43,530 bases of DNA from positions 1-43,530 of the forward strand of contig SVAN01000008.1 in assembly GCA_015059375.1 (NCBI GenBank), written 5' to 3'. The translations under genes and the position numbers were made by a program. The DNA comes from Bacillota bacterium (lineage in GTDB: Bacteria; Bacillota_I; Bacilli_A; RF39; UBA660). The notes beneath the pieces were generated by a model that was not told where the DNA came from, did not search any database, and was given only the letters and a program-made list of their open reading frames with translations. Shown here piece by piece: positions 4,162 through 39,533 of the stretch; the first letter of the stretch is position 1; each line of letters starts with the position of its first letter.

Positions 4162-4665
4162 TTAATTATGATATTCATTACATTTTTTCTCAAGTAACGG
4201 AAAATTACAGCATCTGCTTGCTATATTAGGAGATAAATTACCACTCACGTATTTTTCATATAATAATTTAGATTTTTTATAAAGTTTATCTGAATTACGA
4301 TTTAACCAAAATAATTGTTTTTTAAGTAATAATAAATAGTGCATTTCGCTTTCAGTATTTCCTTTATTTTTTAAGTCTAGTTTTATAATATTTTCACTTT
4401 TGACAGGCAGCATATTATTAAAATTTATTGCTCCTAAAATACCTTTATCGATTTTTAAAAAATCAATTTTGTTTTTTAATTTTAAATGTTTTGGTTTAGG
4501 ACTTGATAACGGCGCAAAATACTTACACTGATTCATTTCAAATAAAACGCCTACAAACGGTCTTAATTCTTTTTTGCCATAATTATATGGAACTTTATCA
4601 TCAAATTTTCTTAAAAAATCACAATAATCTTGATTTAATTTTACTAAAACAAGTTGTTTTGCCAT
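4162..4665 (-). CDS. toxN: Type III toxin-antitoxin endoribonuclease toxin (ToxN/AbiQ family)
   Basis: ToxN is a sequence-specific endoribonuclease that processes its own antitoxin RNA precursor. It is held inactive in a protein-RNA assembly until, for example, phage infection frees it. The 167-residue protein matches the family along its length. It has FDDKVP (21-26), the P-F-V-G-V-L block, YFAPLSSPK (49-57) with the active-site-region Ser and Lys, GAINFNNMLP (78-87), a KKQL-containing helix followed by N-x-NSDKL, and a C-terminal CNFPLLEKK segment. Family members are about 165-175 residues. GGAGG lies just before the ATG. Upstream on the same strand are an intrinsic terminator and three 34-nt repeats, the standard type III gene order. 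Because the terminator stops most transcripts, the toxin is made only by read-through. Confidence 0.95.
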   Translation of the reverse strand: MAKQLVLVKLNQDYCDFLRKFDDKVPYNYGKKELRPFVGVLFEMNQCKYFAPLSSPKPKHLKLKNKIDFLKIDKGILGAINFNNMLPVKSENIIKLDLKNKGNTESEMHYLLLLKKQLFWLNRNSDKLYKKSKLLYEKYVSGNLSPNIASRCCNFPLLEKKCNEYHN

Positions 4666-4701
4666 ATGTTTCCTCCGGATGAAATAATTATAACTTAAAT
4701 C

Positions 4702-4733
4702 AAAAAATAAAACTAGAGTTTGCTCTCTAGTTT
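4702..4733 (-). terminator. Intrinsic terminator between antitoxin array and toxN
   Basis: Read on the minus strand, a 9-bp perfect stem (AAACTAGAG with CTCTAGTTT), a 6-nt loop and a T-rich tail. It lies after the last antitoxin repeat and 36 nt before the toxN start codon. In known type III loci such a leaky terminator keeps antitoxin RNA in excess over toxin mRNA. Confidence 0.88.
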
Positions 4734-4852
4734 CTTTTTTAGTTTCCTGTTATGGCCGGAATCGCCACTTTTTTAGTTTCCTGTTATGGCCGGAATCGCC
4801 GCTTTTTTAGTTTCCTGTTATGGCCGGAATCGCCGCTTTTTTATGCCTAAAC
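4734..4852 (-). ncRNA. toxI: ToxI-like type III antitoxin RNA precursor
   Basis: The RNA is predicted to start near 4852, run through three repeats and end at the terminator. ToxN would cut it into 34-nt units that bind and inhibit the toxin. Each unit can form an H-type pseudoknot. In the unit read 5'-3', GGC at 9-11 pairs with GCC at 19-21, and TTCC at 14-17 pairs with GGAA at 28-31, so the helices interleave. The only variable base among copies (C or T at unit position 8) lies outside both helices. An A-rich segment at the start of the unit and GGAAACT at its end flank the likely cleavage region. The repeat sequence is unlike the ToxI and AntiQ repeats I remember. The role rests on position, repeat length and structure. 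Confidence 0.88.
4741..4842 (-). repeat. Three tandem 34-bp antitoxin repeats
   Basis: Units at 4741-4774, 4775-4808 and 4809-4842 have a period of exactly 34 bp. The last two are identical; the one nearest toxN differs by one base. A short partial unit (AGTTTC plus a T-run) merges into the terminator at 4729-4740. The core GGCCGGAATCGCC is GC-rich against an AT-rich background. There are no spacers, so this is not a CRISPR array. Confidence 0.97.
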
Positions 4853-22867: not shown

Positions 22868-25072
22868 TTAAGAAGTACACTTATTAATTGGCAGATATTG
22901 AGTAAGCGAAAAATATTCTCCTCTTCCATCATGAATACGCAAATTATTTGACGCTCTTACGCCATTTGAGAAATATGCGCCTACCCCCTGACAAGTTGTT
23001 CCGTTTGCTGCAGTAACATAAAACCGTGTATTACTATAATCATAATGCGGACAATTTGTACTAAAATGCGATTTTAAAGTACAACCACCAGTTACTGTTA
23101 AATGAATCTCATATTTATCCCCGACATTTTTATAACAATGTGCGATTAAATAACATGATGTTGGTGGGACAACAGGATCAGGTGTCGGAGGGAGAACTGG
23201 GTCAGGTGTTGGCGGGACAATGGGATCTGGCGATGGTACATAACACCCATAGCTTTCGTTACACTCAGTATTTTTGAAATACGATTTACAAAATTTTCCA
23301 TTATACTGTGAATAAGTTTCACAAAATTTCGATGCCGTTCCACTACCACAGGTTGTTGAACAGGCTAACGCAGAACCACAAACTTCATAAGTACTTGAAC
23401 AACAATCTTGTGTATTACACGAATCAGTTCCACTTTGCTTTGTTCCGCATGATGTACCAAAATATCGATCCGTTAAGTTAAGTATTTGACTTTGCTCTCC
23501 ACCACCACAGACTTTACTACAGGCGGTAAATCCTCCTAAAGTCTGAGTTGTGCTATCGCAAGTACGATATAGTCTATAATAATACGATTTCACTGAAGAA
23601 ATATTTCCTACTTTATCTTTAATAAAGGCATATAAAATATGTGAATCACCAGAACCATTGGATGAAGCGAATTTGTAATCAGTCGAATAATAATTATTTG
23701 ATACATCAATCCACGCACACGTATTAGAATTATTTGTTAAAGTTAAACAAACTTTGTCAATTCCACTATGGCTATCACTGCCCATTAATGAAGCGGTTGT
23801 GTTATTAGAATTATACCTATCATTGGAAGAAACGTTAAAAGAAGTAATTGATGGAGCCGTTTTATCAACATAAACGCTTGCAGTTCGTGAAGGACAAAAA
23901 GTTTCATTTCCTGCTCGATCTTTAATTATATATGCATCAATCGTTGCAGAATAAGTTGTGGTTGTAAAGGTATTTTCGCCACCAGAATACAGGGGATTAC
24001 AGCCTGATTCACCATCAAGACATCCATATTTTATTGTTACGTCACTCTTAGTCCAACTATAGTTATCTCCATCCGCAGTACATGTAGGTGCTATTCGATC
24101 TATTTTTTTAACTACAACACTACTTTGTGTAATAGTTGACTTATTAATATTTCCTGCTTGATCTTTTACCCAAATATAGTATGTACCATTCTGGGTAGCT
24201 GAATAATTCAAATTATAATTATTACCTGATATTTCTGTCCATCCGGCTGCAGGAACATCGACACTTCTTGTTACAATAAATCCAGCTAGACCAGATTCTT
24301 TATCCTCAAGCGTTGCACTTATTATTTTTTCTTTTTTCCACGTATCATTATCGGATACCGTGAAATCTCTAACAATTGGTTCTTTTGCATCAATTTTTAT
24401 TCTGGCACTTCCACTATAGGCTTTAGCATTTTGCGTAACAATTATTTCATAAACATCATTGATATATTGCTTATCTGGTATTTTAACTAAATGTGTTTTA
24501 TTTAAATCAAAGACATCCGGTGAAAGCGGTGATATCCATGAATATAACGTGGTAGGATCTAAATTAACTACGGAAGTATCATTTGATTTGACTCCGAGAA
24601 TAATTTGTCTTTCTACGCCGCTAATCCATTGATTAGTTACCGCTTGGTTTGGAATACAACTACCACCTGATGATGCCGCACAATATAAAATAGTTAACAT
24701 TGTATCATTAAATAAGCTAGAATCACAAGTATCACTTTCTTCATATACCGGATTATTTTCATTTGTATAATCAACATAATCACAGTTCATTGATGAATTA
24801 TCAACTGGGTCAATAATACTTTCAGATTCATTATCTGACTTTAACACCCCCTCTTTGATTAAAGTTTCAACGTATACTTTGGTAATTCCTGTGGCGCTTA
24901 CATACCTTTGAGCAGCAACAATGATTCTCGCTTTTAAATTCTCTTTTTGGCGATTTTTAACGGCATTTGATATTGAAACTAGTGATAACGCAGCAATTGT
25001 TATTATGACTCCTAATAAGACAATAACAGCTAATAATTCAATTATTGTAAATCCTTTTTTATTTTCTTTCAT
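22868..25072 (-). CDS. Giant prepilin-like adhesin with Ig-like repeat and two TSP1-like modules
   Basis: 734 residues. The N-terminus is a class III prepilin signal (KKG before FTIIELLAV, a hydrophobic helix to about 31, and Glu at mature position 5), so a prepilin peptidase should process it. A pilin-like domain with Cys pairs follows (about 40-230). Then come Ig-like strands (230-324), one 78-residue four-Cys repeat (325-402) and another Ig-like domain (403-504). Two modules at about 515-557 and 571-610 match thrombospondin type-1: CS-x2-CG-x-G, then CN and C. A Pro-rich linker (611-638) and a Cys-rich C-terminal domain end it. It is paralogous to the next gene upstream. Function inferred: surface or pilus-tip adhesion. 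Ribosome site AGAAGG. Confidence 0.88.
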   Translation of the reverse strand: MKENKKGFTIIELLAVIVLLGVIITIAALSLVSISNAVKNRQKENLKARIIVAAQRYVSATGITKVYVETLIKEGVLKSDNESESIIDPVDNSSMNCDYVDYTNENNPVYEESDTCDSSLFNDTMLTILYCAASSGGSCIPNQAVTNQWISGVERQIILGVKSNDTSVVNLDPTTLYSWISPLSPDVFDLNKTHLVKIPDKQYINDVYEIIVTQNAKAYSGSARIKIDAKEPIVRDFTVSDNDTWKKEKIISATLEDKESGLAGFIVTRSVDVPAAGWTEISGNNYNLNYSATQNGTYYIWVKDQAGNINKSTITQSSVVVKKIDRIAPTCTADGDNYSWTKSDVTIKYGCLDGESGCNPLYSGGENTFTTTTYSATIDAYIIKDRAGNETFCPSRTASVYVDKTAPSITSFNVSSNDRYNSNNTTASLMGSDSHSGIDKVCLTLTNNSNTCAWIDVSNNYYSTDYKFASSNGSGDSHILYAFIKDKVGNISSVKSYYYRLYRTCDSTTQTLGGFTACSKVCGGGEQSQILNLTDRYFGTSCGTKQSGTDSCNTQDCCSSTYEVCGSALACSTTCGSGTASKFCETYSQYNGKFCKSYFKNTECNESYGCYVPSPDPIVPPTPDPVLPPTPDPVVPPTSCYLIAHCYKNVGDKYEIHLTVTGGCTLKSHFSTNCPHYDYSNTRFYVTAANGTTCQGVGAYFSNGVRASNNLRIHDGRGEYFSLTQYLPINKCTS
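23849..24151 (-). repeat. 303-bp near-identical copy shared with the paralogous adhesin gene
   Basis: This segment matches 27138-27440 with one visible mismatch (24129 versus 27418). It encodes the first 78-residue four-Cys unit and its N-terminal flank. Sequence on both sides is clearly more diverged, so recent gene conversion or segmental copying between the two adhesin genes is likely. Confidence 0.9.
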
Positions 25073-25097
25073 TTGACTACCTTCTATTATTAAATAT

Positions 25098-25131
25098 AGT
25101 ATAACAAAAAAAGATAGTATTTTAAACTATC
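25098..25131 (-). terminator. Terminator of the first adhesin gene fused to the promoter of the second
   Basis: Minus-strand stem GATAGT/ACTATC (25113-25131) and T-run, followed at once by TGTTATACT (-10 at 25098-25103). The shorter adhesin gene can therefore be transcribed on its own. The element is nearly the same as that downstream of the paralogue, so it was probably duplicated with the gene. Confidence 0.75.
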
Positions 25132-25136
25132 TTTTA

Positions 25137-28100
25137 TTAAGTACAGCTATTAAATGGTAAATACCTAGTAACAGAGAAGTAATATCCTTGGCCATTTTCC
25201 ATTTTAAAATTATTTGATTGATTATCTCCATTTGATAAATGAGCGCCTACTCCTGGACATTCTGAATTATCAGAAGTTGTTACATAAAACTGAGTTGTAT
25301 CATAATCGTATGCTGGGCAAACCCTACTATAATAACTTGTTATTGTACACCCTCCACTTACTTTTAAATGCATTTGATATGTTGAGCCAACATTTTTATA
25401 ACACCACGCCCAAAGTGAACATGAAATTGGCTCAGGGTCCGGTTCCTCAACTACAGGATTACAATAAGCTGGTTTAGATGGTTGTAATGGGTACCTTTCA
25501 ACTGTTCCATATTGTGTAGAACCATTCTTTTGACTATAATTACACGTTGTCGCTGTACATGTTGTTATAAAGTATTCATCACACCCTAAATAACGAATTT
25601 TCCAAATTGATTCTTCTGGTTCAGGCTGCGGCTGTGGGGTAACTACCGGATTACAATATGCCGGCTCATAAGTCGTCCAACTATTTTTGGTTAATGTTCC
25701 TGAATTATACATCCCATTTTTTATTGTATAATTACATGTATTACCGGTACATGTTGTTACATAGTATTCATCACACCCTACATAAACATATTGATAATAA
25801 TTTTCAGGAGTTACTACCGGTGGAACATAACAACCATAATTTTCATAACAAAAAGACGTTTGATATCCACTGCCACAAAGTGCTCCATTATAATTTGAAT
25901 AAGTCAGACAAAATTTCGATGCCGTTCCCATACCACAGGATGTTGAACAGGCTGACGCAGAACCACAAACTTCATAAGTACTTGAACAACAATCTTGTGT
26001 ATTACACGAATAAGGTCCACTTTGCTTTGTTCCGCATGATGAACCAAAATAGTAATCATATGTCTCAAATGTATTATACTGTACACCGCCGCCGCATTTT
26101 TTCGTGCATTGGGTTGTTCCACTACTATACGATGTCGTTTGATCACATGTTTTATATAAACGGTAATAATAACTTCCAGCCGAAGAGACATTTCCGGCAT
26201 TATCTTTCACAAAGGCATATAAAATATGTGAATCACCAGAACCATTATATGAATTAAAATAATAATAAGTTGAATAAGAACTATTTGATACATCAATCCA
26301 TGCACACGTATTAGAATTATTTGTTAAAGTTAAACAAACTTTGTCAACTCCACTATGGCTATCACTGCCCATTAATGAAGCAGTTGTGTTATTAGAATTA
26401 TACCTATCATTGGAAGAAACGTTAAAATAAGTAATTGATGGAGCCGTTTTATCAACATAAACGCTTGCAGTTCGCGCCAAACACGTTTTTGAATTCCCGG
26501 CACTATCTTTTATTGTGTAGGAATTGATTTTTGATGTCATTGTCGTTGTATTAAAGGTTTTTGTGCCACCTGAATACGAAGCATTACAGCCCGATTCACT
26601 ATCAAGACATCCATAAGTTATTGTTACATCACGATTAGTCCAACTATAGTTATCTCCGGAATTTGTACATGATGGAGCCGTTTTATCAACATATACATTT
26701 GCGGTCCGCGCGGGACAAGTTGCTGAGTTGCCCACCTTATCTTTAACAGTGTAAGAATTGATTTTTGATGTCGTAGTTGTTGTATTAAAGGTTTTTGTGC
26801 CGCCTGAATATGAAGCGTTACAGCCCGATTCAGCATCATTACACCCATAAGTTATTGTTACATCACGATTAGTCCAACTATAATTATCTCCGGAATTTGT
26901 ACATGATGGAGCCGTTTTATCAACATATACATTTGCAGTCCGAGCGGCACAAGTAGTCGAATTACCTACCTTATCTTTAATCACGTACTCTGCAATTGTT
27001 GCAGTTTTAGTTGTTGTATTAAAAGTCTTTGAACCACCTGAATATGAAGGATTACAGCCTGATTCACCATCGTCACATCCATACATAATAGTAACGTTAT
27101 TTCGTGTCCACATATTGTTATCGCCACTCGAGGTACATGATGGAGCCGTTTTATCAACATAAACGCTTGCAGTTCGTGAAGGACAAAAAGTTTCATTTCC
27201 TGCTCGATCTTTAATTATATATGCATCAATCGTTGCAGAATAAGTTGTGGTTGTAAAGGTATTTTCGCCACCAGAATACAGGGGATTACAGCCTGATTCA
27301 CCATCAAGACATCCATATTTTATTGTTACGTCACTCTTAGTCCAACTATAGTTATCTCCATCCGCAGTACATGTAGGTGCTATTCGATCTATTTTTTTAA
27401 CTACAACACTACTTTGTATAATAGTTGACTTATTAATATTACCGGCTTGGTCTTTTACCCAAATATAATATGTACCATTATCAGTCACCAGCCCTTGTTC
27501 AGAACTTATTGAATAACTATTTCCTGTAATGTTAATCCAGCCACTGGTTGGAACATCTAGGCTTTTAGTTATTACAAAGGCTGCTAAACCTGACTCATTA
27601 TCTTCCAAAAGAGCTGTTATATTTTTTTCTCTTTTCCAAATATCCGCATCAGTCACCATTATATCTCTAACAACCGGTTCTTTAGCATCAATTTTTACTC
27701 TGGCACTCCCACTATAATTTTTCTTGTTTTGCATGACAATTACTTCATACACATCATTGATATATTTTTTGTCAGGCATTTTTACCCGGTGAACATTATT
27801 GGAATCAAATACATCTGGAGCAAGCGGCGATATCCAAGAATATAAAGTTAGCGGCGTTAAATCCACAACTGATGTGTCTCTGGATTTTGCTCCTAAAATT
27901 ATGTCTTTACCATTACCACTTATCCAATCATTAGTTATATTATTACGAGGAACACATGATCCTCCGGTTGCAACTGAACAATATAAAAGCGTAATCATCG
28001 TATCATTAAATAATTCAATATCACAACTATCACTTTCTTTATATGCCGGATTATTTTCATCGCTATAATCAATGTAGTGGCAATTCATCGAAGTGTTATC

Positions 28101-28370
28101 AACTGGATTAATTATAATTCCATCTTCATTTTCAGCTTTTAGTAAACCTTCTTTTATTAAAGTATCAACGTAAACCTTTGTAATACCAGTATCATTTACA
28201 TATTTTTGCGCGGCTACTTTAATACTAGCTTTCAAATTTTCTTTTTGGCGTTCTCTCACACCATTTGATATCGAAGATATTGAAACAACTGCAATAGTTA
28301 ATATAACGCCAAGTAAAGCAATAACCGCTAATAATTCAACTAAGGTAAATCCTTTTTTATTTAATTTCAT
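25137..28370 (-). CDS. Giant prepilin-like adhesin with four Ig-like repeats and two TSP1-like modules
   Basis: 1077 residues. It begins with a class III prepilin signal (KKG before FTLVELLAV) and the same pilin-like N-terminal domain as its paralogue. Four consecutive 78-residue units start at residues 328, 406, 484 and 562. Each has four Cys and a YxxKDxxGN strand typical of bacterial Ig-like repeats. An Ig-like domain (640-740) and two TSP1-like modules (about 752-794 and 808-846) follow. Next are two copies of a YxGCDEYxxTTC domain separated by a Pro-rich linker, and a C-terminal domain shared with the paralogue. The many Cys imply extracellular disulphides. It is the last gene of the operon from the WG-repeat genes and overlaps its predecessor by one base. 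Role inferred: adhesive pilus subunit. Confidence 0.88.
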   Translation of the reverse strand: MKLNKKGFTLVELLAVIALLGVILTIAVVSISSISNGVRERQKENLKASIKVAAQKYVNDTGITKVYVDTLIKEGLLKAENEDGIIINPVDNTSMNCHYIDYSDENNPAYKESDSCDIELFNDTMITLLYCSVATGGSCVPRNNITNDWISGNGKDIILGAKSRDTSVVDLTPLTLYSWISPLAPDVFDSNNVHRVKMPDKKYINDVYEVIVMQNKKNYSGSARVKIDAKEPVVRDIMVTDADIWKREKNITALLEDNESGLAAFVITKSLDVPTSGWINITGNSYSISSEQGLVTDNGTYYIWVKDQAGNINKSTIIQSSVVVKKIDRIAPTCTADGDNYSWTKSDVTIKYGCLDGESGCNPLYSGGENTFTTTTYSATIDAYIIKDRAGNETFCPSRTASVYVDKTAPSCTSSGDNNMWTRNNVTIMYGCDDGESGCNPSYSGGSKTFNTTTKTATIAEYVIKDKVGNSTTCAARTANVYVDKTAPSCTNSGDNYSWTNRDVTITYGCNDAESGCNASYSGGTKTFNTTTTTSKINSYTVKDKVGNSATCPARTANVYVDKTAPSCTNSGDNYSWTNRDVTITYGCLDSESGCNASYSGGTKTFNTTTMTSKINSYTIKDSAGNSKTCLARTASVYVDKTAPSITYFNVSSNDRYNSNNTTASLMGSDSHSGVDKVCLTLTNNSNTCAWIDVSNSSYSTYYYFNSYNGSGDSHILYAFVKDNAGNVSSAGSYYYRLYKTCDQTTSYSSGTTQCTKKCGGGVQYNTFETYDYYFGSSCGTKQSGPYSCNTQDCCSSTYEVCGSASACSTSCGMGTASKFCLTYSNYNGALCGSGYQTSFCYENYGCYVPPVVTPENYYQYVYVGCDEYYVTTCTGNTCNYTIKNGMYNSGTLTKNSWTTYEPAYCNPVVTPQPQPEPEESIWKIRYLGCDEYFITTCTATTCNYSQKNGSTQYGTVERYPLQPSKPAYCNPVVEEPDPEPISCSLWAWCYKNVGSTYQMHLKVSGGCTITSYYSRVCPAYDYDTTQFYVTTSDNSECPGVGAHLSNGDNQSNNFKMENGQGYYFSVTRYLPFNSCT
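26454..27389 (-). repeat. Four tandem 234-bp (78-residue) Ig-like repeats
   Basis: The anchor GATGGAGCCG (plus strand) recurs at 26437, 26671, 26905 and 27139, exactly 234 bp apart. The two units nearest the gene's 3' end (residues 484-561 and 562-639) are almost identical, which suggests recent tandem expansion. The paralogous gene has one unit. Confidence 0.95.
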
Positions 28371-29236
28371 TATTTACTATCCTCTACTTTAGGTATTGTA
28401 ATAACCGCTCTAATTCCAATTCCTTTTTCAGTATTAACTTTGTAAGGAAATAAAGCAACTGCACTAGGATGAAATTCCGTATTTTGAACCACATAAGCTT
28501 TGGTAATATATCCATTTACTTTATCAACAGCACTAGTTAGAGTCCAAAAAGGTTTAGAAATAGATAACCAAGCAATTGGTTTTTGAGCATTATTAATTAA
28601 ATATTCTACTTCTTCTTTGGTAATTGTTCGTACTCTTACTTTTTCGCCTTCAAACGGGAAATAAGAATCATACTCGGTATACACATTAACATTACCGTTT
28701 TCAATTACCAGTTTAGAATAACCGGCCCCTAAATCTAGGCTATCACAATCGTATCCTTCAACTTTTGTCGTTTTAGTAATACAAATATCTCTAAATCTTT
28801 GATAGCCACTATCTTCATATTTATAATTTTGAATTACATCAATATTCGTCCAATTATGCGTAGCATTTGACAAGTTTATTATCAAAGAATTTGGGCCAAA
28901 AAAGTTTCCAGGTTGATGATACCAAATTGCATCTTCAATAATATTGTTTTCTGAAAGAAGTGTCATGGTATTTTCATCGTTACTTATCACATAAAAATTC
29001 TCAATTTTTTTATCATTTACAGCAACGCTCACAGCAATTCCTTGAATAATTTCTTCAAGGGTACAAGTTTTGCCTTTTTCTAAACATTTTGTTGTAACTT
29101 CCTCAGGATAATTAATAATTGAAATTGGACTCTTTTCTTCCTGCGCAGAAAGAATTAAATTGGCAATTAATAAACTAGCTAATGCTACTACAAAAACAAT
29201 TAATAATCCTAAAAATATTTTCTTTCTTTTTTTCAT
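28370..29236 (-). CDS. Membrane-anchored surface protein of the pilus locus
   Basis: Not recognised; 288 residues. Residues 8-30 form an N-terminal membrane anchor after a Lys/Arg-rich start, and the rest is extracytoplasmic. A Cys pair is near the N-terminus (CLEKGKTC) and another in the middle (CITKTTKVEGYDC). The C-terminus, WTLTSAVD...GIGIRAVITIPK, recalls the ending of the two larger surface proteins at 36.9-39.5 kb (WTMTP...RPILYL), so a distantly related fold is possible. It overlaps both neighbours by one base and is therefore part of the adhesin operon. Possible roles are assembly or display of the adhesins; nothing more can be supported. Confidence 0.72.
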   Translation of the reverse strand: MKKRKKIFLGLLIVFVVALASLLIANLILSAQEEKSPISIINYPEEVTTKCLEKGKTCTLEEIIQGIAVSVAVNDKKIENFYVISNDENTMTLLSENNIIEDAIWYHQPGNFFGPNSLIINLSNATHNWTNIDVIQNYKYEDSGYQRFRDICITKTTKVEGYDCDSLDLGAGYSKLVIENGNVNVYTEYDSYFPFEGEKVRVRTITKEEVEYLINNAQKPIAWLSISKPFWTLTSAVDKVNGYITKAYVVQNTEFHPSAVALFPYKVNTEKGIGIRAVITIPKVEDSK

Positions 29237-30162
29237 TATTCCACACCTACTACTTTATAACTATCAACCATAGAATTTCCATCATATATGTTTACTTTGT
29301 TATCTTCAATTTTATAATCATAATACTTTCCAAATTCACTGTAACGGGAAATGATTTCCGTAAATTCATAATTATAGATAAGCACTTGACCACTACTATT
29401 TAAAAGTACATGAATATTATCAAAACTATCTATCTTTTTTATAGTAACTCCTGGTAAGACAATATTTCCATCATATAGGTAAATTAAGTAATTATTATTT
29501 TGGTCTATATGATAAATGTATGTCTTGTCATAATCATAAATTGGATAAATCGAAGGTGATGATAACTTCTGATTATCACGGTTAATGATATACCAGTTTT
29601 CACTTTCTTTTACTGCAATTCGCTCAGTCGATATTTCTTCAGAGACCATGTGATTACTAAGCCCCATAAAATGATATTGTGGCTCAATCACAAAAGTAAT
29701 TTGATTAATATTAAATAGTCCATAGTTACCATCTTTATTTCGGACAATCAACCCATTATTTTCTAATGTTGTGCCATAATTTTTAATTAATGTAAATTCT
29801 GTAATTGTTCGTTCTGTTTTAAGATTATATAAATTTATAACTTCCCCATCCTGAATAAGCACATATTCATCCGCAATAATGCCTAACTGATTATTTGCAC
29901 CTTCATAATACTTTAAATACTCATCTTCAATTTGGGTGAGTGCCGTATCACAAGTTGCTGTTTTACATTCATATATGCCTTTTAATTTATCGTTATCATC
30001 ATAATAATAAAGTTTATTTTCAAACTTATGTAAATGCTCTGGATTACCTTTTTCTTTTTGCATAACGCTCTGATAATAAATACCATAGATTGAGCAAGGC
30101 AAGAAAATCAGTAGTAAAACAATAATTAAGGGAAATACTACTTTATTCTGTTTCATCTTCAA
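29236..30162 (-). CDS. Membrane-anchored WG-repeat-like protein (short)
   Basis: 308 residues. One hydrophobic anchor (about 8-28) is followed by an extracytoplasmic domain. A Y-x-C...C pair is near 60-70 (IYECKTATC). NKDGNYGLFN followed by FVIEPQYHFMG fits the WG repeat pattern (KxGxYGxxx...IxPxYD), in which short beta units build a propeller-like domain. It is shorter than, and related in layout to, the upstream 697-residue protein; the two reading frames overlap by 20 bp. Function unknown; its position in the operon implies a role with the adhesins or pilus. Confidence 0.78.
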   Translation of the reverse strand: MKMKQNKVVFPLIIVLLLIFLPCSIYGIYYQSVMQKEKGNPEHLHKFENKLYYYDDNDKLKGIYECKTATCDTALTQIEDEYLKYYEGANNQLGIIADEYVLIQDGEVINLYNLKTERTITEFTLIKNYGTTLENNGLIVRNKDGNYGLFNINQITFVIEPQYHFMGLSNHMVSEEISTERIAVKESENWYIINRDNQKLSSPSIYPIYDYDKTYIYHIDQNNNYLIYLYDGNIVLPGVTIKKIDSFDNIHVLLNSSGQVLIYNYEFTEIISRYSEFGKYYDYKIEDNKVNIYDGNSMVDSYKVVGVE

Positions 30163-32341: not shown

Positions 32342-33043
32342 TTATCTTACAAAATAATTTATTAATACTGGACCTAAAATCAAAAGCATAATCAAAGGAA
32401 TAAATAATAGGACACTAACAACTGATATCTTGGTAGGCATCTTATTAATTCTTCCTTTAATATCAAGAATCCTTTTATCCGTTAAATATTCAATTTGATT
32501 ATTTAAAGCATCGACAATACTATTACCATAGACATTAGCTTCAATTAAATTTAAAAGAACATTTTTTACGCTTTTCGAAGGAATACGATTCTTAAGATCT
32601 TCAATTGCCTCTGTCAATGACTTACCTAATTTTACCTCTTTCAAAGCAACTTTAAATTCAGTAGATAAGTCACTATCAATCGCATTTGCGGTAATATCTA
32701 AACACAATTTTAAATTTCTTTCACTTTGCATAGTTAAAGCAAGAACTTCAAAAAAGAAAATAGCATCATGTTCTAAAGTTTTAACTCTTTTTTTAAGAGG
32801 ATAATCCAAATAACAATAATCATAAATTAAATAAACAACAATTGTGAAAAGTGGTGCTAACAAATAACCATGTTTGAAATATAGTAAACTACCTATAAAG
32901 GTAAAAATAAGTAAAAATAATTTAGTATTCAAAAATTTATTAACGTTTAATTTACACGTACTACCTAGTGCTGTAATCTTGCGTTCTAATCTTCTTAATG
33001 ACCTTTTAGAGTAGATTCTTTTAATAATAATGTCACTATTCAT
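32342..33043 (-). CDS. tadC: Tad pilus inner-membrane platform protein TadC-like
   Basis: 233 residues with a type II secretion F-type fold (GspF/TadC). Hydrophobic segments are near residues 43-80 and at the C-terminus (about 207-232). The central cytoplasmic helical region carries the family's ALTMQSERNLKLCLD and LGKSLTEAIEDL pattern. It is paired with the adjacent tadB, only 1 bp away, and the two are expected to form the membrane platform driven by the TadA ATPase. It is shorter than many TadC proteins (about 290) but complete in its C-terminal half. The tad terminator follows. Confidence 0.88.
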   Translation of the reverse strand: MNSDIIIKRIYSKRSLRRLERKITALGSTCKLNVNKFLNTKLFLLIFTFIGSLLYFKHGYLLAPLFTIVVYLIYDYCYLDYPLKKRVKTLEHDAIFFFEVLALTMQSERNLKLCLDITANAIDSDLSTEFKVALKEVKLGKSLTEAIEDLKNRIPSKSVKNVLLNLIEANVYGNSIVDALNNQIEYLTDKRILDIKGRINKMPTKISVVSVLLFIPLIMLLILGPVLINYFVR

Positions 33044-33044
33044 A

Positions 33045-34055
33045 TTACACTTCCTCTACTTTCATTATTTGTTTTATAACTACAATATAAACGATATATA
33101 ATATACCAATAACTATATCAATAACATATCCAATTTTAGTGGTAATCAAAGGCATAAAATAACTAGGGCTCATCGCTACTATTACTAAAACAAATATGAT
33201 AGGCAAACTTACAAGCATTCGATATAAAAATTTACTAGAACTCGTTAATGCTTCTAATTCATTTTTAATTTTCAACCGGTCATAAAAGTTTTTTTCAATC
33301 ATGTTAAATACCGTAACAATGTTACCGCCCGTCTTGCTTAGTAAAGCTAATGATGAGGTAATGTATTTAGCTTCCTCAAGTTTTACTCGCTTATAAAATC
33401 TTTCAAAAACAACACTTAAATCAAGCCCATAATTAATATCAGTATAAATAATATTAAATTCATCTTTAATAGGACTAGGAAGCTCTTTTTTGACAATTTC
33501 AATTGCTTGTAAAATATTTTTACCACTTTTAAAAGCGCTATTCATCATAACAATTGCTTGTAATAATTGTTCTTCAATTAACTTTTTATGATTTTGATAA
33601 AGCCAAATAATAATTAAATCAATACAAAAGAAACTAATTATTGAACCTATTAAAAAGACAGGAAGACTAAAAGTTGCAAATTTAATGGATATGGAAATGA
33701 TATATAGACCTTGCACAAAAAACATAACTAAAAATTTCAAAGAGATATAGTCAATGCTTTTAAAAGTATTTTGACGATCCGCAAATAAATATTTTTCAAA
33801 GCCCTTAGCATAATCTTTTAAAACTTGAGATTTAGTCAAAAACTTAGAAATGTTTTTAATAATTACTAAACAAAATTTTAAAAAAGCATCAGCAATTGAT
33901 AATTCCTCAGCATTTTTATTATCTAAAGCAAAATCTTTGATTCTTTTTTCATGCCAAGCCGACAAAAAGATTCGCACAAATAGAAAAACAAGTAGTAAGA
34001 ATATACTACTAATAACTAGATAACTAATTAATGTTCCCATCACTTGCTTTTCCAT
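33045..34055 (-). CDS. tadB: Tad pilus inner-membrane platform protein TadB-like
   Basis: 336 residues. Membrane segments are at about 8-30, 105-155 (two) and 275-330 (two). A cytoplasmic GspF-type helical domain near 165-270 includes NSAFKSGKNILQAIEIVKKELPSP and LALLSKTGGNIVTVF. This layout is that of TadB. It lies 9 bp after tadA, with GAGGAAT as ribosome site. With TadC it forms the platform that moves pilin subunits out of the membrane. Confidence 0.92.
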   Translation of the reverse strand: MEKQVMGTLISYLVISSIFLLLVFLFVRIFLSAWHEKRIKDFALDNKNAEELSIADAFLKFCLVIIKNISKFLTKSQVLKDYAKGFEKYLFADRQNTFKSIDYISLKFLVMFFVQGLYIISISIKFATFSLPVFLIGSIISFFCIDLIIIWLYQNHKKLIEEQLLQAIVMMNSAFKSGKNILQAIEIVKKELPSPIKDEFNIIYTDINYGLDLSVVFERFYKRVKLEEAKYITSSLALLSKTGGNIVTVFNMIEKNFYDRLKIKNELEALTSSSKFLYRMLVSLPIIFVLVIVAMSPSYFMPLITTKIGYVIDIVIGILYIVYIVVIKQIMKVEEV

Positions 34056-34064
34056 TATTCCTCT

Positions 34065-35390
34065 TTATTTAAATATTTCCCTTATTTCTTCGTAGCCATA
34101 AGATATAATTCTTTCTAAGCATTTAGGCTTACCCTTCATTTTTTCATACTGACCATCAACTTCTTTTTTATCTGTTAAACCTAATTGGTTAAACGTAAAA
34201 ATTTCTTTAAGTTTAATTTCATCTTCATCAAATCCTGTTACTTCACTAATCGAAGTTATTTTTCTTTTACCATCTGCTAAACGTTCAATATTTACAATAA
34301 TACTTATGGCACTTTGAATATATTCACGAACAGCTTTTACAGGAAGATCAATATTTGCCATTAAAACCATGGTTTCTAGCCGATGTAAAGCATCTATGCA
34401 ACTATTAGCGTGAAGTGTTGTTAAACTACCTTCATGACCAGTATTCATCGCCTGCAACATATCAAAGGCTTCTTTCCCTCTTACTTCACCGACGATAATA
34501 CGGTCCGGACGCATTCTAAGAGAGTTACGAACTAAATCGCGAATTGTAATTTCTCCACTTCTTTCATAATTGGTAGTTCTTGTTTCTAAACTAATAACAT
34601 GAGGTTGATGAAGTTTTAATTCAGCCGCATCCTCAATCGTCACAATTCTTTCTTTTTCACTGATAAAACTGCTTAAAATATTTAATAGCGTTGTTTTACC
34701 ACTACCAGTACCTCCACATACTACAATACTTAGTTTAGCATTAACTGAAGCCTCTAAAAAAGTAGCCATTTCGGGAGTTAAACTTCCGACTCTGATAAGT
34801 TCGTCAATACTATTAATTGACTCTTTAAATTTGCGGATTGTTATAACTGGTCCTTTTGTCGAAAGTGGCGGAATTACCGCATTAATTCTTGAACCATCTT
34901 TAAGGCGGGAATCAACCATTGGGCTTGTCGAATCAATTGTTCTTCCCATTGGTTCGACTAGTCTTTGAATTGTTCTTACAATATGTTCATCATTAATAAA
35001 TGATACACTTTCGTCTTTAACTAAATTACCATCAATCTCAATATAAATTTCTTTTGGGGAATTAACCATGATTTCCGTAATGTTATCATCTTCTAAAAGT
35101 TCAGTTAAAGGACCATAACCATTAATTTCATTATCAATCAAATTATATAAATGACTTCTTTCTAAATTTGATAAATCATACCCTTCGATTGTGCGATCAA
35201 TTTCTTTATTAATATATTCTGTTAAATCTTCCCCTTCAGGAATTTTGCTATCAATGATATTTTCTACTATTCTGGTTCTTAAATTATCAAGTAAAGTCTT
35301 ATCCTTAAAAATATCATAATCACTAATAATATTTACTTTCGGTCTATTCTCAGCATATTCAAATACATTTCTTAAACTATTTTTCATCAT
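34065..35390 (-). CDS. tadA: Tad pilus assembly ATPase TadA/CpaF
   Basis: Secretion ATPase of the VirB11/CpaF family that powers pilus assembly; cytoplasmic, hexameric. The 441-residue protein has an N-terminal helical domain, then [15 protein letters not shown] and the Walker [16 protein letters not shown] (about 226-240). Next come VTIEDAAEL and the [19 protein letters not shown] and [14 protein letters not shown] blocks of the Asp/His boxes. Its start overlaps the end of the TadZ gene by 14 bp. Length is normal for CpaF. Confidence 0.96.
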
Positions 35391-36144
35391 TTAACTCCAT
35401 TAAATTATTACACACTGACAAATACGCTTTATAAACTTTAGGATATATTTTAGGCATTTTACTTTCTAAAGTTAAAATTTTGCCATCCGCTACATATATA
35501 TCCATACTCTTTAAATAAAAAGATGATTCTATTATATAGTCAATATTGGTTTTAATAATACTTTTCATATCATATAAACTATAATACCTTTTATTCGGAT
35601 TAATAAAACTATTAAGCATTACTTGATAATTTTCTTTTTCAGCATCCTTAAAGATACGAATAATATTCCGCATATTTTTTAAATCTAATAAATCATTAGT
35701 CATCACTAAAAGGGTTTGATCACATTTATCTAAAATAGTAACATTAAATTCATTTAAAACATGATTAGTATCCACTATTACATAGTCATATTCATACACT
35801 GCTTTTTCTAAAATTATTTCAATATAACTCGATGCTATCTTACTTCCTTGTCTTGGATCTTTACAAGAAGCTAAAATATCAATATTATCACTATACTTAG
35901 TTACATAATTTCTTATACTTTGATATCGATTATTAGCATAGTCATCCACAAAATTATATATTGTTAACTCTGGGACTTTATTTACATAGGTAGCAATAGC
36001 TCCCCCCGTAGTATCAAAGTCAATAATTAAAATATTTTTATCTAAAGACGAAAAAACTCCTGCAATATTAAGTGCAGTAGTTGTCTTGCCAACACCACCT
36101 TTAGCCGAAAAGATACATAAACTTTTACCCTTTGCTTTGCCCAT
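35377..36144 (-). CDS. tadZ: MinD/ParA-like ATPase TadZ/CpaE
   Basis: 255 residues from the ATG; the TTG two codons earlier is less likely. A deviant Walker A, KGGVGKTTTALNIAG, occurs at about residues 14-28, with IIDFDTTGG as Walker A' and DYVIVDTNH as Walker B. This places it in the MinD/ParA group. In Tad loci such proteins position the assembly machine in the cell. Unlike many CpaE proteins it has no separate N-terminal receiver-like domain. It is followed by tadA and preceded by two pseudopilin genes. Confidence 0.88.
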   Translation of the reverse strand: MGKAKGKSLCIFSAKGGVGKTTTALNIAGVFSSLDKNILIIDFDTTGGAIATYVNKVPELTIYNFVDDYANNRYQSIRNYVTKYSDNIDILASCKDPRQGSKIASSYIEIILEKAVYEYDYVIVDTNHVLNEFNVTILDKCDQTLLVMTNDLLDLKNMRNIIRIFKDAEKENYQVMLNSFINPNKRYYSLYDMKSIIKTNIDYIIESSFYLKSMDIYVADGKILTLESKMPKIYPKVYKAYLSVCNNLMELNDEK

Positions 36145-36150
36145 AATCAA

Positions 36151-36504
36151 CTACCCTTTTTTGTAATATATTTTGCCATTTTCTTCGTAACCTAAAATAC
36201 TAATTTTTACTTCATATTTTTTACCTAAAAAACTGTCTACATTACTTACAAATGATACTTTAAGTCCATAACTTCCATCAATAACCAAGTTACTTACCCC
36301 AATATCATTCTTATCATATAACAATATTATATCATTTTTATCTTTTTCTTCAATAGAATTTGCAATAATACTTTTTGTTACCGATATTAATTTGTTTTTT
36401 TGATAACTTACATAAGCCTTTTCAATTCCAAGACCAAAGAGGAGTAAAATTAAAGGTAGTAAAATAATAAAAGTTACTAATGATTGACCATGTTTATTTA
36501 GCAT
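36151..36504 (-). CDS. TadE-like pseudopilin
   Basis: 117 residues. The N-terminus (KHGQSLVTFIILLPLILLLFG) is that of TadE/TadF pseudopilins: a short basic leader, G at the processing site and a hydrophobic helix. A short outside domain lacks Cys. It overlaps the preceding pseudopilin by 11 bp. It may be a minor pilin that primes assembly. No typical 50-70-residue Flp pilin occurs in the window, so the main pilin may be one of these or lie elsewhere. Confidence 0.8.
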   Translation of the reverse strand: MLNKHGQSLVTFIILLPLILLLFGLGIEKAYVSYQKNKLISVTKSIIANSIEEKDKNDIILLYDKNDIGVSNLVIDGSYGLKVSFVSNVDSFLGKKYEVKISILGYEENGKIYYKKG

Positions 36505-36799
36505 ATATAGTCCTTTCGACAGTTACATGATAATTATCAATTAAAACGCTTACTAAAGGCGAAGTCATTTCTACATCACTACTTAGTTTATAAGTTACCA
36601 TATTATCTAGTGATACTTTTTCTAAAGACATATCACTAGATAAAGAATAATTACTTTCTAGCGTAACTTCTTCGATTATCCTTTCTAATTCCATCTTTTT
36701 TTGAATCACATTTACAAAATCAAAAAAGGCCAATAATAGCATTATTAATATTGGCATAATAATTATAAATTCTACTAATGCTTGCCCCTTATTATTCAT
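36494..36799 (-). CDS. tadE: TadE-like pseudopilin
   Basis: 101 residues. NKGQALVEFIIIMPILIMLLLAFFDF is a clear TadE N-terminus, with the conserved Glu of ALVEF five to six residues after the processing site. The remainder is a small outside domain (about 35-101). GAGG precedes the ATG. It is the first gene of the tad cluster, 56 bp after the upstream surface-protein gene, and is separated from that gene by a strong hairpin. Confidence 0.87.
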   Translation of the reverse strand: MNNKGQALVEFIIIMPILIMLLLAFFDFVNVIQKKMELERIIEEVTLESNYSLSSDMSLEKVSLDNMVTYKLSSDVEMTSPLVSVLIDNYHVTVERTIYAK

Positions 36800-36855: not shown

Positions 36856-38019
36856 TTACAGCCCCAGGATATATGGATTAGTTATCGTTCCAGTTCCTCC
36901 CCGAATATATACACCAGAGTCTAGATACAAGATTGGCCGGGTCGCATAGCCGTAGTACGCGTAGCCGTAAGTCGCATAACCGTTAATGCGCACGAGCATC
37001 ACAGACGCCGCGCTATATGGTGTCATTGTCCACTCATATCCATTTCCATATAACCAGTTATTAGCAACTGAACTTGCTAAATTTGATAAATATGTACTAC
37101 TATATGTTATTCCCGATGCTGCATAACCATAGTCACTTATGTTCATTAATCCTATTGCTGTTTGTTTAGTAACTAAGTTTGTTTCTAAATCATATGCTGC
37201 ATCTATATATGTTGCTGTATTACTTACTGTTCCGACATTCATATGTACGCTTTCAATCATTTTATTATAATAATCATTTTCACTTTTTGATATCCCGTTT
37301 ATCCGGTAATCACATGTTCCCAAATATGTACTATATCCATAACATGGGCTTGCTCCTGCGGCATTTCCTTTTCCATGATATTTTTCATTTAAAAGGGTAT
37401 ATAAGGTATTTCCGCTTCCCCATACAGTTTTGGTCTCTGAACTATGATAAGCTAGTCCGCCTATTGATTCATTTCGAATTATTTTAACTAAGTTAGTTCT
37501 TTTGTTACAAGTTCCGCTTGTTGCTCCACTTGCTATCGTGGCATTTGTACATACAGGTACACTTCCAATTATTCGCCATAGTTCATCATTAAACCACACC
37601 CAGTTATCTGGCTGCTTACCAGAATATCTATATCCATCGTTATCAGTGGGATTTAACCTTTGTACTTCTTTTATTAATAAATAATCGTCTCGATTTTCAG
37701 CTTTAATAGATATAAAATTTACATGACACGTAGTTCCCGCTTGCGTTAAATTTTCAAAAGTAATTGCCATTTTATATTCACCATTTGTTTGTTTTACTGG
37801 TAAATACTTAGCAAAAACATTATTACTACACTCTATTTCAGCAGTATATTTTTCATTTATCGAAGGAATCCGTGATGCTGATTCCCCATCAATTGTTATA
37901 GCAAGCATAGCTCCTTCATAATTAAGATACTTTTTTTCATTTTTTGGATATAAAAACACTACTGTCATGCTTAGTATTAATATTCCTAGTATACATCCTA
38001 CTATCTTTTTATTTTTCAT
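36856..38019 (-). CDS. Membrane-anchored surface protein with possible variable C-terminus
   Basis: 387 residues. A membrane anchor lies at 6-24 and a Cys-containing N-terminal domain follows. The block from DGYRYSGKQPDNWVWFNDELWRIIGS onward is a surface-protein module I associate with uncultured gut Bacilli. The C-terminus has WTMTPYS (from W330) and RPILYLDSGVYI. Between these, at about 337-361, is a Gly/Tyr/Ala-rich stretch encoded by unusually GC-rich DNA. That layout resembles C-type-lectin/Lcl-like targets of diversity-generating retroelements. It is paralogous to the next gene; their last 260 codons are nearly identical. It has GGAGG and a good promoter. Ligand and function are unknown. 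Confidence 0.82.
   Translation of the reverse strand: MKNKKIVGCILGILILSMTVVFLYPKNEKKYLNYEGAMLAITIDGESASRIPSINEKYTAEIECSNNVFAKYLPVKQTNGEYKMAITFENLTQAGTTCHVNFISIKAENRDDYLLIKEVQRLNPTDNDGYRYSGKQPDNWVWFNDELWRIIGSVPVCTNATIASGATSGTCNKRTNLVKIIRNESIGGLAYHSSETKTVWGSGNTLYTLLNEKYHGKGNAAGASPCYGYSTYLGTCDYRINGISKSENDYYNKMIESVHMNVGTVSNTATYIDAAYDLETNLVTKQTAIGLMNISDYGYAASGITYSSTYLSNLASSVANNWLYGNGYEWTMTPYSAASVMLVRINGYATYGYAYYGYATRPILYLDSGVYIRGGTGTITNPYILGL
36935..37014 (-). repeat. GC-rich patch shared by the two surface-protein genes (copy 1)
   Basis: 80 bp with 49 G/C (61%) in an AT-rich locus. Copy 2 is at 38254-38333. The copies differ at four positions (36942, 36957, 36963, 37011). On the coding strand these read A/T, T/A, T/A and G/A, so every difference includes an adenine. 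This is what adenine-specific mutagenic retrohoming would give, but four sites are few. Confidence 0.85.
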
Positions 38020-38174: not shown

Positions 38175-39533
38175 TTACAGCCCTAGGATATATGGATTAG
38201 TTATCGTTCCAGTTCCTCCCCGAATATATACACCAGAGTCTAGATACAAGATTGGCCGGGACGCATAGCCGTAGTTCGCGTTGCCGTAAGTCGCATAACC
38301 GTTAATGCGCACGAGCATCACAGACGCCGTGCTATATGGTGTCATTGTCCACTCATATCCATTTCCATATAACCAGTTATTAACAACTGAACTACTTAAA
38401 CTTGATAAATCTGTACTACTATATGTTATTCCCGATGCGGCATATCCATAATCGCTTACGTTCATAAGTCCTATTGTGGTTGGTTCTGTTACTAAGTTTG
38501 TTTCTAAATCATATGCTGCATCTATATATGTTGATGTACTACTTACTGTTCCGACATTCATATGTACGCTTTCAATCATTTTATTATAATAATCATTTTC
38601 ATTTTTTGATATCCCGTTTATCCGGTAATCACATGTTCCTAACATAGTTTGATATCCATAACATGGACTTGCTCCTGTGGCATTTTCTTTTCCATGATAT
38701 TTTTCATTTAAAAGGGTATATAAGGTATTTCCACTTCCCCATACAGTGTTTGTACCTGAACGATGATAAGCTAGTCCGCCTATTGATTCGTTTCGAATTA
38801 TTTTAACTAAGTTAGTTCTTTCGTTACAAGTTCCGCTTGTTGCTCCACTTGCTATCGTGGCATTTGTACATACAGGTACACTTCCAATTATTCGCCATAG
38901 TTCATCATTAAACCACACCCAGTTATCTGGCTGCTTACCTTGGTAGCGGTATCCATAAGATATTGACGCAATTTGAACGTGCGTTGCATCATCTTCTACC
39001 ACATCTTTCAAAAGAGGATAACTACTTATATTTTCTTGCGTATAGTTTAAAGTACACGCAATTGTTTCACCTGATGTTTCACTTATTTCAATTCTTCGAT
39101 AATTAAAATTATAATTAGAGCTTGCATTAGTGCAAGATAAATTAGCTTGATATTTGTTTCCTGTTGGTATTGTACCCACTACACCATCTGTTTGTACCGC
39201 TATTTGGATATCTGGATCTTTAGTTTTAAAATATACATAACATTTATCACCGGTATTGATACTATATTTTATAGTTCCATTTAGACTACTGTATCCAGAA
39301 ATTACGCCACCGTTAGTACAATAACTTCTTGACTTATCTATTGAATAACCGCCTACCGGGATCTTTGATTTTTTTACGTATTCTTGTTTTAGTTCATCAT
39401 AAACCATTATAGCAATTTGCTTATTTTCTTCACTCGACTTACTATAAGAAAAAGCTGTGTCATCTTTAAATACAAGATTTGCTAAAACAAGACTAATTAT
39501 TACTAAAATCACTAAGGGAAAGTGTTTCTTCAT
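38175..39533 (-). CDS. Membrane-anchored surface protein, paralogue of the downstream gene
   Basis: 452 residues. An N-terminal anchor (about 5-22) is followed by one or two Cys-containing beta-rich domains (30-175) not shared with the paralogue. The shared module then starts at about YRYQGKQPDNWVWFNDELWRIIGS. Its C-terminus has WTMTPYS (from W395) and RPILYLDSGVYI around the GC-rich stretch. The C-terminal 260 residues are nearly the same as in the 387-residue protein, so one arose by a recent duplication or was homogenised. It is divergent from the flippase gene. Function not known; surface binding is the best guess. Confidence 0.82.
   Translation of the reverse strand: MKKHFPLVILVIISLVLANLVFKDDTAFSYSKSSEENKQIAIMVYDELKQEYVKKSKIPVGGYSIDKSRSYCTNGGVISGYSSLNGTIKYSINTGDKCYVYFKTKDPDIQIAVQTDGVVGTIPTGNKYQANLSCTNASSNYNFNYRRIEISETSGETIACTLNYTQENISSYPLLKDVVEDDATHVQIASISYGYRYQGKQPDNWVWFNDELWRIIGSVPVCTNATIASGATSGTCNERTNLVKIIRNESIGGLAYHRSGTNTVWGSGNTLYTLLNEKYHGKENATGASPCYGYQTMLGTCDYRINGISKNENDYYNKMIESVHMNVGTVSSTSTYIDAAYDLETNLVTEPTTIGLMNVSDYGYAASGITYSSTDLSSLSSSVVNNWLYGNGYEWTMTPYSTASVMLVRINGYATYGNANYGYASRPILYLDSGVYIRGGTGTITNPYILGL
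38254..38333 (-). repeat. GC-rich patch shared by the two surface-protein genes (copy 2)
   Basis: Copy of 36935-37014, with differences at 38261, 38276, 38282 and 38330. About 70 bp on the C-terminal side and 50 bp on the N-terminal side are also almost identical. No reverse transcriptase or template repeat lies in the window. Confidence 0.85.

Follow-up and report, generated by a model that had tools for sequence, protein, structure and literature searches.

Can type IV prepilins carry genuine thrombospondin type 1 (TSP1) repeats, which are best known from animals and from malaria-type (apicomplexan) parasites, and, if so, what might such modules do there? This question is raised by two neighboring minus-strand genes, here called P1 and P2, on a 43,530-nucleotide stretch of DNA (hereafter the window) from a Bacillota bacterium of the UBA660 family (order RF39; contig SVAN01000008.1, assembly GCA_015059375.1), whose assembly is small and rich in AT. 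The initial annotation of the window had described two successive Cys-rich modules behind Ig-like repeats in both encoded proteins, and we found them at ranges close to the claimed ones. P1 runs from a prepilin signal through a pilin domain, Ig-like domains, two TSP1 modules and a proline-rich linker to a C-terminal tip domain, of which P2 was the sole other carrier in this survey. Its paralogue P2 contains four tandem copies of a Cys-containing Ig-like repeat against one in P1 and ends in a longer tail. The two genes are 79% identical across the first 1.2 kb and 82% identical across the last Ig/TSP1 part, and the order on the minus strand is P2, P1, then polA.

TSP1 homology of the Cys-rich modules

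The search with a TSP_1 hidden Markov model (HMM) that the annotation had suggested was answered by the relatives of P1 and P2 rather than by the window copies. Against Pfam, the window proteins scored 18.6 bits for TSP1_spondin (cut-off 41; E=0.0022) and 10 bits for TSP_1 (cut-off 21.6), whereas relatives passed the cut-offs of TSP_1, TSP1_spondin and TSP1_ADAMTS, some of them by far: relative L046, whose module reads as a textbook TSP1 repeat (GNWGNWGTCSKKCGTGTQSRTRTC...NCNTMTC), reached 59.3 bits for TSP_1 versus the required 21.6, and L044 reached 70.4 bits for TSP1_spondin versus 41. Pfam cut-offs mark a limit of detection and are no biological trait of the domain; the low scores of the window proteins indicate divergence. 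A Pfam TSP_1 search of the window's own genome gave no match, which we attribute to a lack of sensitivity, because a profile of bacterial modules recovers all four modules of the window. This profile, A1, comprises 44 bacterial TSP1 modules, and with the window modules among its rows it returned E-values of 3.9e-16 for P1 module 1, 1.0e-13 for P2 module 1 and 6.4e-11 for P2 module 2.

When A1 was compared with the chains of the PDB, the best match was thrombospondin-1 (E=8.7e-16), followed by C6, F-spondin, BAI1, properdin, TRAP, MIC2 and the circumsporozoite protein (CSP); apart from midkine (E=0.78), every one of the 50 matches was a protein that contains TSP1. The four window modules, used as the sole profile rows, likewise found thrombospondin-1 (E=1.8e-6). 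Two controls in which the Cys columns of A1 were kept fixed and all other columns permuted gave no PDB match at E<=1; the unpermuted 22-row half of A1 gave E=2.4e-15. Moreover, an HMM built without the window rows scored the four window modules at 51.8, 24.2, 43.7 and 23.4 bits, while the best of 500 Cys-keeping shuffles per module reached 15.2, 8.9, 13.4 and 7.4 bits. Since every module exceeds its best shuffle, the match to TSP1 goes beyond chance.

The predicted structure pointed the same way. An AlphaFold2 (AF2) model of the P1 module pair (pLDDT 89.6) consists of two three-stranded modules, with strands at 11-18/28-38/44-55 and 64-68/79-91/97-109, so that the different fold that would have spoken against TSP1 was not obtained. 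Its best structural matches were TSP1 repeats of properdin, BAI1, CCN3, semaphorin-5A and TRAP, with VIA Z-scores of 4-5 (up to 5.0) across about 50 residues, values that are modest, as expected at this length.

The Cys layout was also of the F-spondin/TRAP order, which here comprises an N-terminal Cys, CSxxC, a Cys behind xNGxx, and CNxxxC. The annotation had correctly seen TSP1 spacing but had assigned the complete six-Cys pattern to the second modules; it is the first module of P1 and of P2 that carries it, with a Cys 13 residues ahead of CSxxC, a Cys at +24, the CN and a final Cys. The second modules have eight Cys, the extra pair lying 6 residues before and 13 after CSxxC, and the one in P2 is without the CN (it reads CYENYGC). 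All four window modules hold the six F-spondin Cys positions, which we predict to pair 1-4, 2-5 and 3-6 as in F-spondin. Among 75 modules, 62 have both the N-terminal and the fourth Cys, 11 have neither and 2 have just one of them, and the extra pair of the window's second modules co-occurred in 8 modules with 10 mismatches, mostly from one short five-Cys subtype; these modules are mutually related, and Fisher values for the coupling overstate their independence. Such joint presence and absence supports a putative 1-4 disulfide and a putative added one, and it means that the pattern is kept in homologues, with Cys lost or gained in pairs. Together with the Pfam scores of the relatives, the PDB matches and the predicted fold, the Cys pattern bears out the identification of the modules as TSP1.

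The Trp/Arg core of the repeat, a typical though not an obligatory feature, was less well kept in the window. At the residue three before the Cys of CSxxCG, where Trp is expected, the four modules have F/A/T/A, and at the Arg position Q/K/N/K; family-wide, position -3 is aromatic in 62 of 75 modules and the Arg position is R or K in 52. The short five-Cys subtype (SxWSxCxxxCGGGTQTRTNTCAL..L..SCNTxxC) occurs in relatives L087, L088, L090, L091, L092, L072, L042 and L044; in those of the sequences that were inspected, the preceding Ig-like domain has a conserved RSCGTSYY segment. Its odd Cys may pair across domains.

Prepilin signal, stalk and distribution

Both proteins begin with a canonical type IV prepilin signal, in agreement with the class III pilin signal claimed for them: PF07963 scored 26.3 bits in P1 and 28.6 bits in P2 (cut-off 21.2), TIGR02532 was above its cut-off in both, and the motif, GFTxxE, is of the type IVa/type II secretion system kind. 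In the AF2 model of P1, a long pilin helix (residues 10-61) leads into a beta domain, Ig-like domains and two three-stranded modules at 508-606, followed by the Pro-rich linker and the tip domain. The Ig-like fold of the model supports the Ig-like repeats read from the sequence, and in Foldseek the body resembled the Ig-like shafts of adhesins, among them SiiE and GhpA.

The same fusion recurs among related genomes, as a survey proposed alongside the annotation had been meant to establish. When the 111-residue module pair served as the first query, 16 of 291 family genomes had relatives; with A1 the count was 36 of 386 genomes and 22 of 150 genera, about one tenth of the genomes. Beyond the family, A1 was run on an order sample, where 26 of 337 genomes matched, and on two sparse samples, one of the class (4 of 296) and one of the phylum (2 of 295); all these matches fall inside the same family. 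A prepilin signal was present in 30 of 31 complete TSP1 open reading frames (ORFs), 29 by motif and L090 by PF07963; in L038 the TSP1 array is kept and the signal is degenerate. Relatives contain up to five tandem TSP1 modules. The number of Ig-like repeats also varies widely, the 1470-aa TSP1 prepilin at L091:7019-11431 having about a dozen. A general contig scan with P1 returned pilin-signal and Ig-like matches and no TSP1, and the TSP1 region of L046 matched neither plasmids nor viral contigs, the latter being a weak test with few exact patterns. A further domain familiar from animals, the ALK/LTK glycine-rich domain PF12810 (cut-off 24.5 bits), is present in two prepilins of genome G143, L087:7776-9110 (118.7 bits) and L090:5465-7642 (73.2 bits), and in L090 it lies behind the TSP1 module.

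Parts of a type IV pilus machinery accompany these genes. The window's own assembly encodes a prepilin peptidase PilD adjoining a full PilC-type protein (G000:C26, L097; PF00482, 174 bits) as well as several small prepilins, and a full-length PilB-type ATPase is present in congeners G395, G429 and G007. PilD was found in 13 of 14 genomes checked, and in G143 a TSP1 pilin-like gene is clustered with PilB, PilD and another prepilin.

A proposed constant neck with a variable tip, and competing explanations

Across 496 compared pairs of relatives, heads were recognizably related in 228, TSP1 regions in 328 and the tails behind TSP1 in 5, where the TSP1 count is biased upward by retrieval with TSP1 modules (heads and tails played no part in the retrieval) and the tails are very uneven in length. 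Because TSP1 regions are mostly related and tails almost never, we favor a reading in which P1 and P2 are probably modular minor type IV pilins with an Ig stalk, a constant TSP1 neck and a variable tip as the likely ligand-recognizing part. Prepilin peptidase would cut the class III signal, and by means of its long N-terminal helix the subunit would then be able to join a type IV filament or cap it. A stalk of one or several Ig-like domains, longer or shorter according to the count of repeats, would follow, with the two TSP1 modules of F-spondin type, stapled by disulfides, as the neck. The C-terminal domain, almost wholly different between relatives, would sit at the tip, where it, rather than TSP1, would make the main adhesive contact.

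Several points weigh against this reading. Besides the retrieval bias and the uneven tails just mentioned, the window's own TSP1 copies are diverged to below the Pfam TSP1 cut-offs and have lost most Trp/Arg core residues, and AF2 modeled the tip domain of P1 poorly. On the side of the machinery, a full-length PilB-type ATPase was not found in the window's assembly, which is 72% complete, and neither VKOR nor Thioredoxin_4 (DsbA-like) oxidases were found in 18 family genomes. Surface proteins with 38-44 Cys are nevertheless encoded in genomes of the family.

Could the modules be Cys-rich domains that converged on TSP1-like spacing without real TSP1 relationship? The window copies on their own miss the Pfam cut-offs and the VIA Z-scores of the pair are just 4-5, perhaps as expected at this length, but relatives pass three TSP1 models, the PDB matches vanish once non-Cys columns are permuted, and Cys are gained and lost in a coupled fashion; we consider convergence highly improbable. 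Granted true homology, the TSP1 modules might themselves bind host glycosaminoglycans or glycoproteins, as proposed initially and as in apicomplexan TRAP and CSP and animal TSP1. The presence of TRAP, CSP and MIC2 among the profile matches, the tandem repetition of the module in relatives, with up to five copies, and the constancy of the TSP1 block all fit such a role. The Trp/Arg basic stack of TSP1 is, however, thought to bind heparin, and the replacement of Trp and Arg positions leaves that stack weak in the window modules and makes TSP1 as the binder less likely for these copies; in addition, ligands are more usually bound by a variable distal domain, and what differs between relatives is the tail, not TSP1. 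We regard direct binding by TSP1 as conceivable but less likely than not.

It is also unlikely, in our view, that the proteins stay unpolymerized and use the pilin helix as the membrane anchor of stalked surface proteins. Their great length, which reaches 1470 aa in L091, the location of most TSP1 genes outside type IV pilus clusters and the degenerate signal of L038 would suit an anchor, but the canonical GFTxxE signal is kept in nearly all relatives, PilD is encoded in all but one of the genomes checked, and one TSP1 pilin-like gene lies inside a PilB/PilD cluster. The window offers yet another candidate filament, a compact Tad/Flp-like locus upstream of P2, whose TadA-like ATPase matched TIGR03819 at E=3e-98, under that model's cut-off. 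That P1 and P2 are cargo or subunits of this Tad pilus is very unlikely: their GFTxxE signal is not that of Flp or TadE, TSP1 genomes G245, G004, G151, G080 and G207 have no strong Tad-type ATPase, and the Tad-type ATPase of congeners G395 and G429 is encoded on a different contig from their TSP1 prepilins. Given this lack of linkage, we rejected Tad linkage as an explanation and did not assign P1 and P2 to the Tad pilus. A constant neck below a variable tip on modular minor pilins remains our preferred reading, and it suggests a diversifying adhesin repertoire. A far wider version is speculative and, we think, improbable as a whole: a family-wide set of polymorphic TSP1-necked adhesins on type IV pili, whose animal-type domain might have come from hosts, with swappable tips and a tunable stalk, as the bacterial equivalent of the TSP1 adhesins of Apicomplexa for colonizing animals.

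Surrounding genes and comparison with known systems

The coordinates of P1, P2 and nearby features are collected in Table 1. A small gene with one transmembrane (TM) segment lies directly downstream in 25 of 42 TSP1 genes; those of the window are located upstream instead. These small proteins do not form one Pfam family, and their functional link to the TSP1 prepilins is putative. Elsewhere in the window, positions 4162-4843 comprise a gene for a ToxN type III toxin (PF13958, 161 bits) and, ahead of it, three 34-base tandem repeats (4734-4843), as expected for a ToxI-like antitoxin RNA. Two adjacent secreted-protein genes (36856-38019 and 38175-39533) are near-identical in their C-terminal parts (300 bases at 94%), which suggests recent duplication or gene conversion.

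Table 1. Features of the window around the TSP1 prepilin genes.
Feature	Position	Strand	Basis or remark
P1, modular type IV prepilin, 734 aa	22868..25072	(-)	ORF; PF07963; TIGR02532; AF2 model
P1 prepilin signal MKENKKGFTIIELLAVIVLLG, residues 1-28, start of long pilin helix	24989..25072	(-)	PF07963, TIGR02532, model
P1 TSP1 module 1, residues 505-557, six Cys, F-spondin type	23402..23560	(-)	Profile, AF2, shuffle test
P1 TSP1 module 2, residues 558-610, eight Cys (six plus extra pair)	23243..23401	(-)	Profile, AF2, shuffle test
P1 Pro-rich linker	23153-23242	(-)	Between TSP1 module 2 and tip domain
P1 C-terminal tip domain, residues 641-734	22871..23152	(-)	AF2 model; tail comparison
P2, P1 paralogue, 1077 aa	25137..28370	(-)	ORF; PF07963; DNA self-comparison
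P2 tandem Ig-like repeats, ~78 aa each, residues about 333-645	26436..27373	(-)	72-78% mutual DNA identity
P2 TSP1 module 1, residues 742-794, six Cys	25989..26147	(-)	Profile, shuffle test
P2 TSP1 module 2, residues 795-847, eight Cys	25830..25988	(-)	Profile, shuffle test
P2 C-terminal tail: two YxGCDEY..TTC..TCNY repeats and tip domain common to P1	25140..25829	(-)	
288-aa protein with a single membrane segment at its N-terminus, next gene upstream of P2	28370..29236	(-)	No Pfam family
308-aa one-TM protein	29236..30162	(-)	Counterpart directly upstream of TSP1 prepilin in congener G429 (L074:7267-8184), similarity read by eye
Compact Tad/Flp-like pilus locus	32342-36799		CpaE-like ATPase, TadA-like ATPase, two T2SSF, two TadE-like proteins

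Modular pilins are already known, and it is the TSP1-bearing version that appears to be new; a search of the main texts of part of the literature turned up no paper that describes TSP1-bearing prepilins. The occurrence of TSP1 arrays in type IV prepilins of roughly one tenth of one family's sampled genomes extends the list of adhesive modules of pili. TSP1 has otherwise been treated as a trait of animals and their parasites; a bacterial group is now available for the question of TSP1 origin, and small recombinant modules offer direct ligand testing.

The closest known systems are the modular pilins of Streptococcus sanguinis. Its PilC joins a pilin module to Ig-like and ConA-like lectin domains and binds sialylated and heparin-type glycans (PMC9934059). 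In a second study, PilB is described as a modular pilin with a von Willebrand factor A (vWA) domain, 264 modular-pilin architectures are counted, and thrombospondin goes unmentioned in the main text (PMC8179133). PilB and PilC share with P1 and P2 the class III signal, the short pilin module, C-terminally grafted modules that include Ig-like domains, a monoderm host and a proposed role in tip-located adhesion, whereas P1 and P2 are much longer and have TSP1 and unrelated variable tails grafted instead. With the TSP1 repeats of F-spondin, TRAP and MIC2 (PF19028, PF00090), the modules of P1 and P2 have in common the three-stranded fold, CSxxCGxG, six Cys and the coupling of the N-terminal Cys to the fourth, but they are bacterial and pilin-borne, most of their Trp/Arg core is gone in the window, and an additional pair of Cys is found in the second modules. 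Finally, the apicomplexan adhesins TRAP and CSP are, like P1 and P2, surface proteins with TSP1 modules, and their structures are matched by the bacterial profile; the resemblance is no evidence for the same ligand, and where P1 and P2 show neither a vWA domain nor a C-terminal transmembrane tail, they have an N-terminal pilin helix instead.

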